Assembly: GCA_010094045.1 (NCBI GenBank)
Contig: ML986721.1
Location: forward strand, 8,742-72,741
Direction: 5' to 3'
From: Lojkania enalia
Lineage: Eukaryota; Ascomycota; Dothideomycetes; Pleosporales
Length of the DNA: 64,000 nt
The notes under the pieces are model-generated. The model was not told the origin of the DNA, did not search any database, and saw nothing but the letters and a program-made list of their open reading frames with translations. The position numbers were made by a program, and so were the translations under genes. How positions within the stretch are numbered: the first letter of the stretch is position 1; every line of letters begins with the position of its first letter. Positions 1-56,392 of this stretch are shown piece by piece.

Positions 1-710
1 ACGAGCTGATTCTTATATAGTAGATGCATCTTTCTCTTGACTAGTAGCCTTTGATAGAACTGCTTGGTGACGTCTAAGGCTAATCTCTTGGTCGATATAC
101 TCCTATTTCAAGTGGACAGCCTTTAGCCTTACTTCTAACCAATCACCTATTTACTTGTAAGTATATATACATGTGATAAATAACTGTGATAACTTACTAG
201 ACTTATGATCGTTGAAGCGCTTCTCTGCTATAGCTTTAATAGCTTCATCTAACATCTTTTTTTTTTCTTCTTCCCCTAGCGCTATATATTCAGTACTTTT
301 CTGTAGCTGCCTCTTCTTAGCACTCTTAGCAGAGCGATCAGCAGCATAGGCACTTTTAATAGCCTTTTCCTTAGCAGTAAGCGATATAGCCTTATCTCTC
401 TATTGGATAGCGCGCTTAGTATTACTAAGTATACCCTTAAAGGGTACTGCAAGGTTGGTTGGACGGCCTTTTTAAGAACCAGCTTAACCGCATAGCGAAA
501 GGACGTATTTAATTTTATAATCTTCTAACTACCAGCCCTATATTTATTAGTAAACTATGATAAAAGACTGGTATAATTACTTACCTGTGTTAACTTCGCC
601 CACTCATCTTAGTCGAAGCTAACTGGTAGCTCTAGTAGCTTTAGTGGTAGCAAGCTATCTGGACTATCAAGAAAATTGTCGTTAATAGGCTCTACTTTAA
701 TAGTTGACAT
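1..710 (-). pseudogene. RIP-killed multi-exon gene, unknown Lys-rich helical protein (3' end outside window)
   Basis: On the minus strand an ATG at 710 opens a reading frame that survives two clean introns. Exon 1 is 710-585, intron 584-538 (GTAAGT...TTTACTAAT...TAG), exon 2 537-198, intron 197-147 (GTAAGT...TAG), and exon 3 runs from 146 past base 1. Codon phase is kept across both junctions, and the only breaks are TAG/TAA codons, as expected when RIP turns CAG/CAA or TGG into stops. The protein begins MSTIKVEPINDNF, has an acidic N-terminus, then KGRPTNLAVPFKG (AT-hook-like KGRP core), then a long Lys/Ala/Glu-rich helical stretch (AKEKAIKSAYAADRSAKSA; GEEEKKKMLDEAIKAIAEKR) and a probable coiled coil (EYIDQEISLRRHQAV). 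I do not recognise the family. It is divergent from the histone-like gene at 1179, 468 bp apart. The intact introns show that a genomic copy was mutated, not a retrocopy. Confidence 0.6.
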
Positions 711-1178
711 TTTATAGGAACTGTAATAAAAGTATATAATAAATCAAAGATTTAGAGTTACGCTAATAAGAGTATAGTAGGAAGAAGAGTTGTAGTGGGG
801 TGTTAGGCTCGACGCGACAAGCGCACGTACCACCTACTAGTATAGATTAGATAGAAATAATAACAAAATATATACACATCTAAATAAATATAAAATATTG
901 GTCGGTTTAGTATAAAAAACTATCACTGAAAAGCGCACTGCTGGTTCTATAAGATAGTAAGTTATTATAGTTTTTTATCACAGTATTCTTATAATGTACA
1001 CCTAAACACCTTATTAGCTTTACTTTATAATCCTAATTCGGTACTAGCTCTTAGCACGTATGTATCTTAGCATCTATATTTACATTTTGGGTATCTATCA
1101 ACGAACCTCAACTTAGCTTTATACTACCAACCTTAATTATCAACGTCAACCACTCTACTCTACTACTATTAACATGTA
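711..1178. promoter_or_regulatory. Intergenic region between two divergent pseudogenes
   Basis: The stretch separates the start codons of the two RIP-mutated genes and would hold both promoters. It is AT-rich except for a GC-richer patch around 796-838 (GTGGGGTGTTAGGCTCGACG and a following CGCACGTACCACC). No further coding potential is visible. The promoter role is inferred from position only. Confidence 0.3.
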
Positions 1179-1791
1179 ATATCTCGCACTCGAGGAACAG
1201 CACGATCTAAAATCGTTCCGATAGGTGGTAAGTCTCCCTAAAAGCAGCTCGCTGCTAAATTAGCTCGTAAGGTACCTGTACTAGTAAAGCCTGCGCTAGT
1301 AAAGCGTCGCTATCGCCCTAGGAGTAAGTTATTATAGGTTTTTATTACAGTTATATACTAATAGGATATAGCTATCGTACTTCGACAGATTAAACAATAT
1401 TAGAAAAGTACTAAACTCCTCCTTCGAAAGCTCCCTTTTTCGCGGCTAATCTGTAAAATTACTACTGTAGTTCGGGAGGATACCTATAGTAGTAAGATGC
1501 GTTGGCAACGGAGCGTAATTAAGGCTCTCCAAGAGTTTGCTAAGGCTTTTCTTATTAGGTTCTTTAAAGGTATGTTATTTTTTATATAATTTATACTATA
1601 TAATACTAACTATACTAGACTATAATGTAAACGCAATTTACGTAAAGCGGGTTACTATCTAAAATAAAGATATATATTTGGCAAAGCGATACTATAAGAA
1701 GTTTAGTCTTCTATTAGATTAGAGTTATAATCCCTAGGTAGTCTTAGGCTTAGAAAAGGCTACTTTAAATAAAACTAGTTCTCTACTGTAA
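1179..1791 (+). pseudogene. RIP-mutated histone H3 variant, CENP-A/CenH3-like
   Basis: A three-exon histone H3-type gene can be read through. Exon 1 is 1179-1323, intron 1324-1371 (GTAAGT...TACTAAT...TAG), exon 2 1372-1569, intron 1570-1618 (GTATGT...TACTAAC...TAG), exon 3 from 1619. The start codon appears as ATA at 1179 (ATG with G to A). The tail reads SRTRGTARSK then GGKSP-stop-KQLAAK, matching the H3 tail ARTKQTARK...GGKAPRKQLA. The core has TIVLRQIKQY-stop-KSTKLL, LLRKLPFSRLI, KMRWQRSVIKALQEFAKAF, NAIYVKRVTI-stop-NKDI and LAKR. The longer loop 1 and the RWQ motif are CenH3 traits; canonical H3 has DLRFQ. Stops are TAA/TAG at expected Arg/Gln sites. The frame stops at 1720 (TAG, possibly from CAG), or at 1789 if that and one more TAG at 1735 were once sense. 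The copy cannot encode a full protein. Alternative: a divergent non-centromeric H3 variant. Confidence 0.85.
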
Positions 1792-1904
1792 TAATTTACA
1801 GTAATAAATATTTGATATATAATATATGATAAATATATAATATATAATATATAATAAATATGTAATATATAATTATTTCCTATAATTATAGAGGAACCCT
1901 ATAG
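1792..1904. other. TA-rich low-complexity spacer
   Basis: The stretch is almost pure A/T with reiterated ATATAATATATAATAAATATG-type words. No gene or element boundary is visible. It separates the histone-like gene from the telomere-like minisatellite. Confidence 0.6.
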
Positions 1905-2070
1905 GGTACCCCTACCTTAACCTTATACCCCAGCGCCAAGAACCCTACCCTAACCTTAACCTCAATGCTAAGAACCCCTACCTAACCTATACCCCAGCGC
2001 TAAGAACCCTACCTTAACCCTAACCCCAGCGCCAAGAACCCCGAACCCAACCTCAACCTAGGTAAGGTAC
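1905..2070. repeat. 32-bp minisatellite with telomere-like CCCTAA words
   Basis: About four to five degenerate copies of a 32-bp unit can be aligned by eye. Each starts AAGAACCC, contains TACCCTAACC or a variant such as CCTTAACCCTAACC, and ends CCCAGCGCC or CTCAATGCT. The CCCTAA/CCTAACC core resembles the fungal telomere repeat TTAGGG read on the other strand, but units are spaced at 32 bp, so it is a subtelomere-type satellite and not a telomere tract. Confidence 0.75.
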
Positions 2071-2088
2071 CATATACCCTATTTACCA

Positions 2089-2338
2089 GCCTATATACAG
2101 CTATTCCAGCGTATTAAAAATAGAGAGTACTTTAAAAGTAGTAAAAAGTTATTATAGTACTATTCTTAGTTAAAATTTAATTTTAATCGATAGTTAAGAT
2201 TATAAAAATAATTTATAATTCTTTATAGGTTAATTATATATTACTATATTAAGCTATTATATATTAATCTAGGTAGGCTATTAAAAGTTTAGTAAGGTAA
2301 TAGCTCGCTTATATTAATAGCTCGCTTATAAACTATAT
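2089..2338 (-). mobile_element. Truncated end of the 1.83-kb Fot1-like family
   Basis: This stretch is nearly colinear with 8130-8369, the right end of the nested element that starts at 2612, and with the reverse complement of the 52550 end of the copy on the right. It ends in the terminal repeat (GCTCGCTTATAAACTATAT) followed by TA. Its other end breaks abruptly at about 2089, next to sequence resembling 56235-56300, so only the transposase-5' side remains. Confidence 0.7.
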
Positions 2339-2477
2339 TAGCTATTATATTAATAGTAAATTAATACGTTATAATACTATATACTATAAAAGGTTTAGAG
2401 ACTTAGTAGAATTTACAATTTGCTTATATTTATAACTCGTTTATAAACTATATTATATAATATACTTAAGAAGTACT

Positions 2478-2608
2478 AATATTTAATAAAACAACTTTAA
2501 GAACTATTATAATATCTACCTAAATATAGAGAATATAACTATAAAATTAAACTATAACTAGAAAAAGAACTCGAATATAGACTAATATATAGTTTAATAC
2601 TAAGGGAA
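2478..2608 (+). mobile_element. Fragment of gypsy-type pol (just before RT), RIP-mutated
   Basis: About 130 bp match 60386-60525 of the gypsy element almost base for base (ATACTAATATTTAATAAAAC, AAATTAAACTATAACTAG, CTAATACTAAGGG). In the complete element this part lies just upstream of the reverse transcriptase core. The fragment stops where the Fot1-like element at 2612 begins, so it is a remnant of an older insertion used as the target. Confidence 0.75.
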
Positions 2609-3002
2609 GTAATATAGTTTATAAGCAAGCTATTATTCTACTAAGATTTAAACGATTTAATTATAATAATTATTAACTATATATATATATACTATAAGAA
2701 ATAATAGTCTATTAGATTATTTAATACCTATACTATTAATTTAGCACGTTTAAGTATTATAGCTAGGCTATTTATAGCGTCTATAGCTCTATTAAAGCTG
2801 GCTACTTTCTTATAACTAAGTACTCTAATTATAAATTTCCTTATTAATCTACCTCTTAATATTATTTTAATTAATTATATCCTTACCTACAACTTTTATT
2901 AAAATCTCCTACTTCTATAATTACTTTCTTTTCTATTATTTTTACTTTATTACTACCTTATTTACTTACTTAAGGTTTTTAATTCGATTAACTATTAGTA
3001 TA

Positions 3003-4851
3003 ACGTAAAGCACCACCGAGCCGGCTATACTACTAAGCCGGCCACTTTTTCTTAGCACTACCAACACTATATATAAGACCTTGATTTACTCGCTATCTAT
3101 AAGAGAACCTATATACGAGATACTTAAACTAGATTTAGAAGAAGCTTCTATATCTTTTTAGTACGTACGAGTGTTATGCCCGGTCTTTCTATAGTTCCTA
3201 TAGTACCATTAACCAGGTTAAGCTAGTTCTTTACTACTACTACCACGAGCCTTTTTAGATCGCTGAGGAGCTGTAGATACCTTAGCAGCTCTATACGAAG
3301 CTCTCTTACTATACTCTATTATACTACTATACTAGATTTACTTCCGTTTACGGATTTTATACTTTATTATAACCTCTAATTACTCTTTAAACTCTATAAT
3401 CTAGTAGTTTATAAGAGCGTTTTAATATAGTATTAATTTAGCTCCTTTTATTAGCTGTAAGAAGCCTTCTTTAGCTTCTTTTAGTAATCGTACGAAGGAC
3501 CTTCGTACGAGAGTTAATTGTAACCCGAATTCTTGTGTATTACTTAGTATTTTTAACTACTATAGTATTTCTAGTAGGGGTACTTCTAGTAGTATATATA
3601 ACCGGACTTTAAGGCGTTTAAAAATAACCTACGCGTTAATAGGAACTAGTTTAAATATTTTAAAGGCCTTTTTATAGTTCTCGTACGTAAATATATTAAA
3701 AAACGCGTCTCTAAAGGCTGGTAGAAAGCCTTCCTTATTAATATAGTAGATGCGTTAGTATACTAAGTCTTATACGCGCTAAGAGTACTTTAGCTTTAAT
3801 AGTAAGAAGTATACTATATTAAGTAGCTGTAGGATATATAATAAATATACTAGTATATAGAGGGTGAGGATCTTTCGTACGAGGTAATAATCCTTAAAAT
3901 CCTGGTTTAGATGGCTCTTATAGCTATTAAGAATAAGTAGCCTATATAACTCTACCTAACGCGTCTTTATATACGCGTTAAAGTACTTTAACTACTTAAG
4001 ACTAAGCTTATTATTTATCTATCTATTCTTAGAAACTGAGAGCTTCTAGTTGTACGGTATATCTATCTCCTTATACTATACTAAAATATAGACGCGTCCT
4101 TTATAGATAATAAATAGTAGAGTTGCGTACCTAGTAGTATAGATATTCTAGATTACTATAACCTACTCCCAATTACCTAGCTAAATAAGCGTAGGTCTTA
4201 TATAGCGTTCTAAACCTATAATAACTTTTATAAAGCTAATTATATCTATCTAGAAGCCTATCTTATTAAAGTTATAGATATTATTTTTATAGATACTATA
4301 TTTAGCTACTATCTCTTATATAAGCTTAAACCACGCGTTAATAACCTCTAGATCTTCTTATAATATCCTTTAACGGTTCTTTACTCGATTGAAAACTATT
4401 TTAAGCTTATTTATACGCGATATAAATCGTTTAGACTAGTTCTTACTTATAGATATTCTACCCTACGCATATAATAGTTTATCTACTATATCTACTACCT
4501 TATAAAGCCGTAGTATAAATCCTCGCAAATTAAGGTTAAGGATATATCGTACGATTATCTACTCTTCAGTTGCTATAAGCTTTATACAATTTAGTTAAGT
4601 TTAAGGTTAAAAGGTAATTCTATAAAGCTGGTTAGAGAGCCGCTAGTATTATACATTAAAAGCTGCTATAGCACGTCGCACGCTTTAAAATTGGTCTAAA
4701 ATATAGGCCTAAAGGGCAAGTTCAATTCTACCTTCTTAATTAGATAGATTAGCTTCGTGTTGTTGAGACATAGCGTTACATACGGAAAAGTTGCTATACT
4801 AAGAAAAAGTGGCCGGCTTGGTAGTATAGCCGGCTCGGTGGTGCTTTACGT
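3003..4851 (-). mobile_element. Nested Fot1/pogo-like transposon, 1849 bp, ~53-bp TIRs
   Basis: Terminal inverted repeats of about 53 bp, with a single mismatch seen, start ACGTAAAGCACCACCGAG and include GAGCCGGCTATACTAC and GCCGGCCACTTTTTCTTAG. TA lies outside both ends (3001-3002 and 4852-4853). The transposase is on the minus strand: the C-terminal zinc-knuckle-like sequence (GHN..TC type, Cys lost) is near 3170-3215 and the N-terminal CENP-B-type HTH part near 4500-4620. Size and TIRs fit Fot1/Pot2-type elements of ascomycetes. Stops are abundant, but the TIRs are GC-rich and well kept, so it is less eroded than its host element. Confidence 0.85.
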
Positions 4852-4936
4852 TAATTAAATATGTTATTATTATAATACTCTTTTAAATCTAATTAAACGC
4901 TATAATAATTAATATAGGTAATAAGTTTTAATATTA

Positions 4937-7008
4937 ACGTATTTTATAAGCAAGTTACCTACCTAAGTAAGTTGCCTACTTTTACTAAGAAGTTATACTC
5001 TACCTACTTATAATATAATATAGTAACTACCTTAACTTTAATTAATCTATTAAAAAGGTTAGATATTACTAGCTATCTTAGCTATTAATTAAGATTAAAT
5101 TTAGAGTATACGAAGTACTATAGCTACCTATAGTATCCCTCAAATAATGCTTAGAAACTAATATACTAGTAAACCTTTATAATACGATTATAAGCCTAAT
5201 TTAAAGAAGCTTATAAAGCTAGAAGAATTAACTATAATATAGTATATATTAGACCTATTATTTTGTAAATACCCTCCTATAATTAATAGTATATAAGATA
5301 TAGCTAACTATTTACTTAGAGCTTACTCTATAAATTAGATTAGTAAAAACTAGCTAATAAACTTTATTAATCGTATTCTTAAACTTAAAATATACTTCTC
5401 TTAAAAATACAACTATTAAAGAGCTCTCTATAAAGATTCTAAAGTTATTAGTAGCTAGTTTAACCTAGTATATAATACTAAAGTAAAATATAGTATTACT
5501 AATAATAATATCTATAATTTTAATAAGACGGGCTTTTAGATAGGTATTATATCTACTAGTAAAGTAGTTACTAGTACTAAGCTATTAGCTAGTTAACTAA
5601 AATTACTATAGTTAGATAATTATAAATAGATAATAGTTATTTAGGCTATTAGCGCTTACGGTAATACTATTCTACTATTTATTATCTTTACTAGTAAGTA
5701 GTACTTCTCTATATAGTATTAGGGTAATAATATACTATTTAGAGGAGTAATTACGCTAAGTAATAGTAGATAGACAAATAATAAGCTTATAATTAAATAG
5801 CTAGAGCGTTTTAATTAGTATATAAGATAGTATATAGTAGGCGTTTATCGTCTACTAGTTATTAATAGCTATAAGAGCTATAAGTCTACTAAGTTTTAGC
5901 TGCTCTATAAAGAGAAGGATATTATTCTATTATATATGCCGGCATATTTATTATATCTACTATAGCCTCTAGATATAGGCTACTTCTTACTATTAAAGAA
6001 AGTATATAGGCGTAAGATTAATAAGCTTATATAAGCTGGTATCTACTATATTATAAAGCTTAACTTTCTACTAACCTTTCGTACAGCATATTGTAATAGG
6101 CTAGTATAATAGATTATAGCGTAGCAACAATAGATAGAGTAGTAGAGCTAAAATGTTCGTATATTCAGTTCTCTTAGAAAAGAGATAGCTGTTAAAAGAG
6201 AGACGAATTGCTACTATCCCTGCAGGGTACGATTCGGCTATTTTAACCCTAGGTTAGATAACTCTATATTATTAACCTGTAACTTAAAGCTATAAAATAT
6301 TATATATATTAGTATTCTATTACTAAAGCTAATATATACGTAAGCTTTTAAGGTACTAGTCTAGTACTATATAATTCTAATATAATACTATTAAAGTTTA
6401 ATATTAAGCTTTATACTCTATTACTACTACTAGCAGCTAGTTACCTCTAGGAGTTAAAAATACCAACTAATACTATTAAACTAGGGTCTTAAATAATGCT
6501 AATTTAAGACCGTATGATTAGGTATTAGAATAGCTTACCTACTACAATTAATAATTCTCTTAATTTACTGATTAAAGGTACTACGCAGATAGCTTATTTA
6601 TATATACTATTTTAGTATTAGGTTAGTTAGTTTTAGAAAGTAAATAAGGCTCTATTATAGCGTAAAAAGCGATTAAAAAAGGTTCTATAGAAGTAAGGTA
6701 GTCTTACTAAAGCTGAAGCTGCTGAGATAACTACTTAAAAGGAGGTAGATAAGTAGTTAGAGGATGAAGTACGCGTAGGTAGGAAGTATAGAAGAGTAGG
6801 TATACTATACTAGAAGTACTATAACCGCTGCAGCGAGTTTAGATATAATACTAGAACTTATATAGTAGTAGATAAATAGTATATCTATCCCCTATTAAAT
6901 TATTATAATAATATTTATAGGTATTATTATAATATACGCCTCTAAATATAGAGATAGTTAATAAGGTAAGCAACTTACTTAGGTGGGCGACTCGCTTATA
7001 AAATACGT
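4937..7008 (+). mobile_element. Nested Fot1/pogo-like transposon, 2072 bp
   Basis: Inverted ends (ACGTATTTTATAAGCAAG at 4937 and its near complement ending at 7008) are flanked by TA (4935-4936, 7009-7010). The transposase is on the plus strand: HTH/CENP-B-type region about 5190-5400, DDE-type core about 5500-6000 (an N-F-N-K-T-G-F-type word near 5515, compare NMDETGF in intact relatives), and a zinc-knuckle-like C-terminus at about 6815-6865 with Cys positions turned to Tyr/Arg. Many TAG/TAA stops are consistent with RIP. It sits 85 bp from the other nested element, inside the same host transposon. Confidence 0.82.
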
Positions 7009-20877: not shown

Positions 20878-22146
20878 ATGGCAGCCGCACCGGGCGAACG
20901 CTCTAGCCAGATGAATCATCTGACTCCAAATCGGGCTATCTCCAAAGATGAAGGAGATGAGGACTTCGAAGGCATGGTCCAGCTCCCGCCGCCGTATTCC
21001 TATTGTCTGTGGACAAAAGTATTTGGCACGAGAAAAGGGAGGGAGCCGGTGGTGGTTCTGCTGACAGGTGGCGGGGCGCCGTGTAAAGTGTACGCTAGGT
21101 TGGCAGAAGAGTTGGGTGGGTGGAGGTGTGTGGTGGTGTATGATCGTGCGGGGTATGGGGAGAGTGGGGTGCCTTGGGAACGTGAAGATGGGGATGGGGG
21201 GTATGGAGAGCAGTGGAAGAGAGTGTTTGTGGGATGGGAGTTTTGGAGAGGGAGAGAGGGGATGAAAAGGGAGGAGATGGAGAAAAAGAAGATCATGGCG
21301 ACGGATTCGGCAGAAGAGTTGGCCGCGCTGCTGCATGTGCTGCGGGTTCGTGGTCCGTATGTACTACTCGGACATTCGTATGGCGCAATTATTGCAAGGG
21401 AATTTGTGGAGTTGATGAACAGTTCACTAACTAAGGGCGAGGGAGATAATAAGTGGTATGACCGCGGTCAGTGTTTTGAGCCGGGGAAAAAGGGAGATAG
21501 GGATGGAGTTGTGGGTCTCGCGCTCATCGAGCCGGCGTCAGAGCTTCTGTATCATACGTATACACCCTCTATCCCACCACCAGCTTTCGACTCGCTGCTT
21601 AGGGATGTCGATGTTGAGAAGGTGTTGCATCTCCGCGAGGAAAGTGGTCTTACGGATGAAGAGTGGGATGCTATGATGGAGGCGATATCTCGCACGTTGC
21701 CTAACGCTCGATATGAAGATTGCCGCAGCTCGGGTAGAATATTGGCGGGAAAGAAACAAATGATGGCGCATGTACTAGATCCGTGGCCTGTAGCGGTGTT
21801 AAGGTGTAATTGGTATAGGGATTGGAAGAAGTTATTTGTAGCAGGGGTAGTGAAAGGGAATGGGAGCGTAGAGGAGAGGGAGGAGGCACAGAAGTTCTTG
21901 TGGGACGTAGAGGTTTTCGATGATGAGGTAAGGGCTGGTTTGGTGAGGTTGACGGGGGAGGATGAGTGTTTGGATGGTGGGGAGGGGGACGGAGAGGAGC
22001 CAGTTGGGAAGGGGGGGAGAAGAGTGAAGAGGAGGTATAGGTATTTTGATGACTGTGGACGTGATGTCCCGTTGAGGAGGCCAGATGTTGTGAGAGAGGA
22101 AGTTGGGTGGGTGATGGAATTGTTGAGGGAGAGAGGGCTTGAGTAG
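20878..22146 (+). CDS. Alpha/beta-hydrolase fold protein, catalytic His apparently replaced
   Basis: A single exon of 422 codons starts at the first ATG (MAAAPGERSS). The alpha/beta-hydrolase layout is clear: strand and oxyanion region VVVLLTGGGAP, VVVYDRAGYGESG, and nucleophile elbow YVLLGHSYGA with Ser at about residue 167. The C-terminal region is FDDCGRDVPLRRPDVV. Relatives usually have Cys-Gly-His-Asp here, and this copy has Arg (CGT at 22060-22062), so the catalytic His may be missing. A large charged insertion (REGMKREEMEKKK) sits before the elbow. The substrate is unknown. The coding strand is unusually rich in G runs. It could be an active esterase using another His, or an inactive homologue. 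No intron is needed to keep the frame. Confidence 0.8.
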   Translation: MAAAPGERSSQMNHLTPNRAISKDEGDEDFEGMVQLPPPYSYCLWTKVFGTRKGREPVVVLLTGGGAPCKVYARLAEELGGWRCVVVYDRAGYGESGVPWEREDGDGGYGEQWKRVFVGWEFWRGREGMKREEMEKKKIMATDSAEELAALLHVLRVRGPYVLLGHSYGAIIAREFVELMNSSLTKGEGDNKWYDRGQCFEPGKKGDRDGVVGLALIEPASELLYHTYTPSIPPPAFDSLLRDVDVEKVLHLREESGLTDEEWDAMMEAISRTLPNARYEDCRSSGRILAGKKQMMAHVLDPWPVAVLRCNWYRDWKKLFVAGVVKGNGSVEEREEAQKFLWDVEVFDDEVRAGLVRLTGEDECLDGGEGDGEEPVGKGGRRVKRRYRYFDDCGRDVPLRRPDVVREEVGWVMELLRERGLE

Positions 22147-39512: not shown

Positions 39513-40013
39513 ATGCCGCGCACCGCGGCACTGACTCGACTTTCCCCCCGCACGGCCCAAGGCTGTCTTACGGATGTCCCCGTTTACTCCTCTTCACCCT
39601 TCCAAAATAACACCCAGCCTCCCTTCACGCCCGACAGCCTCCCCCCCGACGACATTATCTGCCATTCTTGTAAAAGCGGCCGAAGAAGCAATATGACTTC
39701 TCCGGACGTACATTATCCCTTTCCCCCCAAACAATGTATAGGACGCTTCAACCACTTCAAAACAACTTATTCCTAACAGTACACAGCATCAAAGGGCTCT
39801 ACGCTCTCTAAAAGGCTAAAGAAACGGACGAAGCCCAAGCAAGAGAACCCCAACCAGGAGAACCCCAACCATGAGAACCCCAACCATGAGAATCCCAACC
39901 ATGAGAACCCCAACCATGAGAACCCCGACCATGAGAACCCCTACCAGGAGAACCCCAAAAGCGCCTCCATCGCGACTGGCACGTTGTCGATGGATTCAGA
40001 GAAAACGAAATAA
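39513..40013 (+). CDS. Small protein with Asn-His-Glu-Asn-Pro repeats (two exons)
   Basis: Exon 1 is 39513-39735 and exon 2 39787-40013. The intron 39736-39786 (51 bp) has a GTATAG donor, a CCTAAC branch site and an ACAG acceptor, and joins the frames exactly to give 149 residues. The N-terminal half is Thr/Pro/Ser-rich with a Cys pair (DDIICHSCKSGRR). After the splice comes a basic stretch (LSKRLKKRTKPK), then about eight pentapeptide units of the type N-P-N-H-E (variants N-Q-E-N-P, D-H-E-N-P, Y-Q-E-N-P) at about 39845-39957, then SASIATGTLSMDSEKTK. No signal peptide or known family is seen. The start is the first ATG in frame. The donor is non-optimal, so the gene model is a hypothesis. The reverse strand is also open over the repeat, but as a shadow. 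Confidence 0.5.
39845..39957 (+). repeat. 15-bp tandem repeat array
   Basis: Seven to eight copies of a 15-bp unit AACCATGAGAACCCC with few substitutions (CAGG for CATG in the first and last units, single changes inside). The unit length keeps the reading frame, so copy number can change without a frameshift. Confidence 0.9.
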
Positions 40014-56233: not shown

Positions 56234-56392
56234 TATATTTAGGCTGGTAGATAGATATAGGTTGGGTTAGAGTTAGGGTCTTATATAAGTAGGGTAGGGT
56301 TAATATAGATTATAGGCTAATAGGATATATATATAAGCGGGATAGTTTTACTATATATATTACCGTCTATTATTTTAGAGTATCTATTAACG
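56234..56392. repeat. Telomere-like words beside the transposon end
   Basis: GGTTGGGTTAGAGTTAGGG and AGTAGGGTAGGGTTAATAT are degenerate TTAGGG-type words. Read in reverse, 56234-56300 resembles the end of the minisatellite and its flank at about 2040-2088 (CCAACCT, ACCAGCCTA), where the other truncated copy of the same transposon family is also joined. Confidence 0.55.

Follow-up and report, generated by a model that had tools for sequence, protein, structure and literature searches.

A RIP-damaged H3-like histone gene carried by an abundant hAT transposon of Lojkania enalia

Results

The window analysed here, a stretch of 64,000 nucleotides from Lojkania enalia, carries at positions 1179-1722 of its plus strand a real but dead gene of the histone H3 superfamily, confirmed by reading its three exons through their RIP-type stop codons. 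Exon 1 (1179-1323), defined by the spliced read-through, encodes an H3-like tail and has ATA at the position of the start codon. Exon 2 (1372-1569) encodes the start of the histone fold, including a long loop 1 and the tripeptide RWQ, and lies within a stretch matching PF00125 at E=2.6e-11. Exon 3 (1619-1722), recognized by the spliced reading and by alignment with the intact proteins P0041 and P0086, encodes NxNAI...KRVTI followed by RYYKK and closes with the stop codon TAG at 1720-1722. The two plus-strand introns, placed by copy alignment and spliced reading, comprise 48 nt (1324-1371, GTAAGT...ATAG) and 49 nt (1570-1618, GTATGT...CTAG). The stop-tolerant product of the window copy is 148 residues long, followed by the final TAG, and matches PF00125 (E=1e-21) from residue 36 to residue 138, a significant match in the histone fold that extends well beyond the tail. 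The initial annotation had proposed just such a three-exon H3-type histone hidden behind RIP stops, with an H3-like tail, a longer loop 1 and RWQ, and all of these are present; of the extent that it gave (1179-1791) the start stands, whereas the coding part ends at 1722.

PF00125 was found in each of the six histone copies scanned, and a profile built from six copies aligned its residues 1-138 with solved H3 chains (2.4e-36). The window copy has in-frame stops at codons 21, 59 and 129. Across the 11 aligned copies, 17 codons read as a stop in at least one, only codons 59 and 129 do so in all, and stops are confined to RIP-type codons of the spliced ORF; intact relatives have Gln at codon 59 (4/4) and codon 129 (3/4). 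The start codon position reads ATG in four of the 11 copies, and nine are without frameshift. The introns are present in all 11 copies: the intron 1 donor GTRAGT is found in every one and its ATAG acceptor in nine, and the TAG acceptor of intron 2 is kept in ten. The C-terminal end of the protein aligns with the ends of P0041 and P0086. The arginines of H3 positions 63, 69, 83 and 116, which face the DNA minor groove, are retained in the C194 copy. The element histone has Arg at the position of H3 K4 and a disrupted ARKS context of K9; K14, K18, K23 and K27 have counterparts. One copy (C125, L018) shows an in-frame insertion of 15 nt in exon 1 that repeats the adjoining 15 nt. Among the 17 PF00125 matches in the scored candidates, none is an intact element histone. 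By our reading, 11 of them belong to element copies and every one of these has stops; the remaining six are the host H3, two exons of the host CenH3, two genes that we take to be H2A-like and NF-YC-like, and a match at C44:308580.

Alignment of ten loci yielded a sharply bounded unit of about 6.24 kb as the carrier of this dead gene, a hAT transposon with three genes, of which the right-hand third of one copy lies in the window (1-2093; the right end of the C194 copy is 94% identical to it across 2,093 bases). In the C194 copy (6,237 bp), read through stops, these are a hAT transposase and a lysine-rich gene of unassigned function, sharing one strand, and the H3-like histone on the opposite strand. 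Transposase domains were found in the same read-through (PF05699, 1.8e-13; PF14372, 3.4e-6, scoring 27.7 bits where the cut-off is 27). Both ends bear the terminal inverted repeat (TIR) TAGGCTGGTA, perfect over 10 bp in C194; full copies start with TAGGCTGGTAGAT and finish with ATTTACCAGCCTA, an inverted repeat, and by comparison with these ends the right TIR of the window copy is TAGGCTGGTAAATAG on the minus strand (2079-2093). Among six copies with both ends readable, an 8-bp target site duplication (TSD) is exact in four (C194, C63, C20 and C28) and differs by a single base in C227; C209, a copy damaged at its right end, shows no match. The initial annotation had offered two routes for the histone into repetitive DNA, carriage by a repeat unit or capture by a segmental duplication. 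The TIRs, 8-bp TSDs and hAT transposase bear out the former and, because they are present, the unit is not a segmental duplication; its TIRs and TSDs likewise rule out a subtelomeric repeat.

The minus strand of the window copy carries the 5' part of the lysine-rich middle gene (1-710, ATG at 710-708, from the C194 gene model), for which searches of Pfam and PDB gave no matches at E<=1. On the other side of the histone lies a subterminal tandem array (1908-2058), rich in telomere-like CCCTAACC and built of units of about 32 bp; full copies carry a counterpart near their left end, made of TTAGGG-type words that are oppositely oriented. The first 200 bases of C194 contain TTAGGG four times, bases 301-6000 contain it once and the final 220 bases lack it; for CCCTAA the counts in these three stretches are zero, one and two. 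The telomere-like satellite that had been described as a neighbour of the gene is therefore genuine as an array, but is a subterminal part of the hAT element and not a separate neighbour; four consecutive perfect TTAGGG units occur nowhere in the assembly. A hAT transposase binds the ends of its element and moves it by cut and paste, and the inverted subterminal arrays would most likely serve as its binding regions.

The element is abundant. A DNA search of the 58.1-Mb assembly (400 contigs), in which 40 of 207 candidates were scored, lists at least 46 matches, 41 of them covering at least 1,454 of the 2,093 bases; PF05699 has 64 matches across the genome with all families pooled. In the second AT-rich block of the window, a 64-bp fragment (56240-56303, plus strand, 89%) corresponds to the left end of this element or a relative of it. 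Overall, these findings show an abundant hAT DNA transposon that carries, between TIRs and subterminal arrays, a transposase, a second gene and a spliced H3-like histone. One locus (C28, L017) has two right ends with histone in tandem; the aligned histone stretches read alike, and the same 8 bases follow both right ends as flank the left end. The window itself has AT-rich blocks at either end, of 21-35% GC at roughly 1-9 kb and 53-64 kb and near 40% at 9-17 kb, around a 17-52 kb island of about 44-60% GC, the RIP indices of which are sharply unlike those of the AT-rich blocks. Within this gene-rich island are a strong GC skew (0.495) at bases 21001-22000 and a 15-bp tandem repeat at 39830-39958 (8.6 copies, unit GAACCCCAACCATGA), which falls, on both strands, within short ORFs that encode five-residue repeats. 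Rfam gave zero matches within the window.

RIP had been suspected of acting on the histone copy, and the dinucleotide indices agree: TpA/ApT is 1.67 over window positions 1-2093 against 0.76 over 20001-50000, and (CpA+TpG)/(ApC+GpT) is 0.57 against 1.29. Six copies were compared over the whole 2,093-bp right end (C194, C144, C63, C20, C227 and C23), leaving aside C169, which is cut by a contig end, and the more diverged C28, C125 and C209. All 284 variable columns are transitions (169 in CpA, 67 in CpG, 27 in CpT and 21 in CpC context), with no transversions and no indel columns, and it follows that these copies were near-identical before RIP. Within the histone stretch, ten copies compared with C194 show no transversions in seven cases, one each in C169 and C125, and seven in C209; gap columns are limited to C125 (16) and C209 (5). 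All 11 aligned histone copies are RIP-damaged; the host H3 and CenH3 are still readable. The well-preserved copies were thus near-identical when they spread and were later ruined by RIP, the histone included.

The introns of the element histone fall in codons matching H3 T45 and D106. The host H3 (contig C162) has introns, as we read it, in codons R8 and Q120, and the host CenH3 (contig C44) has one before V71 in H3 numbering and one in the tail, so that no position is common to the element histone and either host gene. Since the positions differ, a recent copy of the host H3 that retained its introns was rejected. A motif, TTATYACAG, recurs in the element, with 13 occurrences in C194 against a mean of 0.17 and a maximum of 2 in 300 first-order Markov simulations, and none in window positions 17001-52000. 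Two of the 13 are in histone intron 1 (intron 2 has none), three in introns of the middle gene, for which three were modelled, four in the transposase part, two just upstream of the histone and middle gene, and two elsewhere; in the window, the motif, as TTATYACAG or GTRAGTTATCACAG, is found at 184-197 and 975-983. The six sites of GTRAGTTATCACAG in the whole genome all lie within element copies, and a reversed-pattern control gave none; a stricter double motif, with zero sites in the genome, was uninformative. These introns appear to constitute a family of the transposon's own. Introner-like elements are known in Dothideomycetes (PMC4457414), where the available text does not contain the string TTATCACAG; an origin from host-wide introner-like introns was rejected on the confinement of GTRAGTTATCACAG to element copies (6/6, control 0).

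Intact relatives of the element histone exist elsewhere. Among 120 listed of 5,537 protein matches, the combination of NxNAIH with RYY after KRVTI, also present in the element histone, is found in exactly four: P0041, P0055 (from Paraphoma chrysanthemicola), P0060 (from Massariosphaeria phaeospora) and P0086. These H3-like sequences, which come from other fungi and from environmental DNA, are known here at the protein level. In a tree of 21 rows and 144 columns, some rows being altered by RIP, three element copies cluster with the four relatives (94/94, or 99/96 without P0060). For groupings picked after the first tree, a clade of the element with three CenH3s was rejected (p-AU 0.017), as were one with the host CenH3 alone (p-AU 0.013) and, at a borderline value, one with the host H3 (p-AU 0.041). 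Bit scores of the C194 histone are 139, 138, 128 and 124 against the H3-like relatives and 125, a value near theirs, against the host H3, with the CenH3s below H3.

Discussion

The observations are best explained, at a probability that we would put near 0.7, by an abundant three-gene hAT transposon with an old H3-like cargo gene, silenced by RIP. The element histone probably represents a separate H3-like lineage, neither a recent copy of the host H3 nor one of the host CenH3, and the existence of intact members of this lineage in other sources argues that the gene is old cargo of the element. Two other histories of the gene must be set against this reading, and each finds some purchase in its sequence.

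The locus had initially been taken for a centromeric histone (CENP-A/CenH3) duplicated into repetitive DNA, a suggestion prompted by RWQ and by a longer loop 1, which exceeds that of H3 by five residues, and to which may be added that the C194 histone and the host CenH3 are 57% identical across 94 residues of the core. The host, however, encodes its CenH3 in a gene of its own on contig C44, stop-free in the matched exons, and the groupings with CenH3 that such a duplicate predicts are those rejected by the tree, which instead places the element histone (94/94) within the H3-like group; CenH3 bit scores also fall under those of H3. The element tail aligns with H3 from residue 1, whereas that of the host CenH3 is unlike H3. 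As to the features themselves, loop 1 exceeds that of H3 by five residues in the element and by two, two, none and none in the relatives, and the RxQ site reads RWQ, RFQ, RIQ, RYQ and RFQ across the H3-like group; since both vary within that group, they are not diagnostic of CenH3 here, and RWQ is also found in two other H3-type matches among the 120 listed (P0078 and P0081). The tryptophan codon of RWQ (TGG) and the position-4 arginine codon (CGA) are unreachable by C-to-T or G-to-A changes from Phe and Lys codons, and because RIP-type changes cannot make them, both residues are original. The CenH3 identity has accordingly been abandoned, and we regard a duplicated CenH3 as very improbable.

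A more substantial contender is capture of a passenger, in which a transcript or retrocopy of the host H3 was taken up by the element, drifted without function, gained introns and was lastly subjected to RIP. The absence of host-H3 introns from the element histone would fit such an event, as would the 53% identity of the two proteins over 139 residues, and the comparable case of Pseudocercospora fijiensis has been interpreted in this way in the available text of its report (PMC6710886). Against it, the element histone groups with foreign H3-like proteins and its clade with the host H3 is disfavoured, albeit at the borderline; it is full-length, with termini like those of P0041 and P0086; it has introns of its own; and its stops are accounted for by RIP, with nine of 11 copies free of frameshifts. 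We therefore consider capture possible but unlikely, and favour carriage of an old H3-like gene.

How such a cargo might have served its carrier can be outlined only conditionally. The transposase would bind the element ends and effect cut-and-paste transposition, and an intact H3L protein, as the element histone may be termed, would pair with H4 in place of H3, in keeping with its retained minor-groove arginines. Lacking the normal contexts of K4 and K9, and so unmarkable at K9, H3L could shield new insertions from silencing. That the intact protein joined H4 and worked for the element, for example against silencing, is a tentative notion and rather an unlikely one, weakened by the undisturbed K9 context of P0041 and P0086 and by the loss of all 11 listed histone copies to RIP. 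More doubtful still is the broader proposition that the hAT-H3 "captures" of Dothideomycetes represent one old lineage, with its own spliced anti-silencing H3 variant and private introner-like introns.

From a wider perspective, an apparent puzzle concerning a centromeric histone has become an instance of a known but little-studied phenomenon, the presence of histone genes on transposons, and evidence has been added that the histone may long have belonged to the functioning parts of the element, as opposed to being an accident of recent capture. If this is true, the element would be an unusual transposon encoding a component of the nucleosome.

Several known systems bear comparison. CenH3 (CENP-A/Cse4) shares RWQ and a long loop 1 with the element histone, and differs from it in tail, C-terminus and tree position. 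Fungal DNA transposons encoding TET/JBP dioxygenases, hAT7 among them, also carry cargo acting on chromatin or DNA marks, and counter-silencing has been discussed for them in the text available (PMC12730594); there, however, the cargo is an enzyme and not a histone, and the TSD of hAT7 is 7 bp. The R25 repeat of Stagonospora nodorum (Hane and Oliver 2010) is, like our element, RIP-degraded, with similarity to H3 and weak similarity to DNA transposons, and may be another H3-hAT case, although the portion of the report available reclassifies it and presumes an origin in an endogenous gene region (PMC3017866).

Closer still are two published hAT families with H3-like genes. That described by Dhillon et al. 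(2019) in Pseudocercospora fijiensis and in five more Mycosphaerellaceae resembles the present element, as far as the available text extends, in its hundreds of hAT copies with H3-like sequence, 8-bp TSD, TIR of 18-20 bp, CpA-type RIP in the copies and intact host H3 (PMC6710886). It differs in its length of about 9.5 kb with one or two H3-like copies per element, against 6.24 kb and one histone here; in the dimerisation domain, which was not found there, while PF05699 is present here; and in the inferred capture of an intron-less host H3 transcript, against two introns proper to the element histone (PMC6710886). An insertion of 16 residues in the P. fijiensis protein corresponds to 48 nt and so equals intron 1 of the present histone in length, which is offered as a lead only (PMC6710886). 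The same report, in the part available, regards the case of Pyrenophora tritici-repentis as independent (PMC6710886). The latter, H3L-hAT, is an element of about 5.6 kb present in tens of copies (Manning et al. 2013), and by its published description, as available, shares with ours the TIRs, transposase, a central ORF of unassigned function and an H3-like gene distinct from both H3 and CenH3, and hence the three-gene layout (PMC3538342). Its 26 H3L copies are nearly all intact and represented by ESTs, whereas all 11 aligned here are stopped by RIP (PMC3538342). Histone introns at positions foreign to the host genes, an intron motif confined to the element and telomere-like arrays are features of the present element that do not appear in the available text of either report (PMC3538342, PMC6710886). 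With hAT elements bearing H3-like genes already in print in these sources, the element described here is a further case, the details of which bear on the open question of capture versus old cargo; it argues for, without proving, an H3-like lineage that is old and possesses introns of its own. The intact copies published for P. tritici-repentis provide a route by which the old-cargo idea can be tested (PMC3538342).
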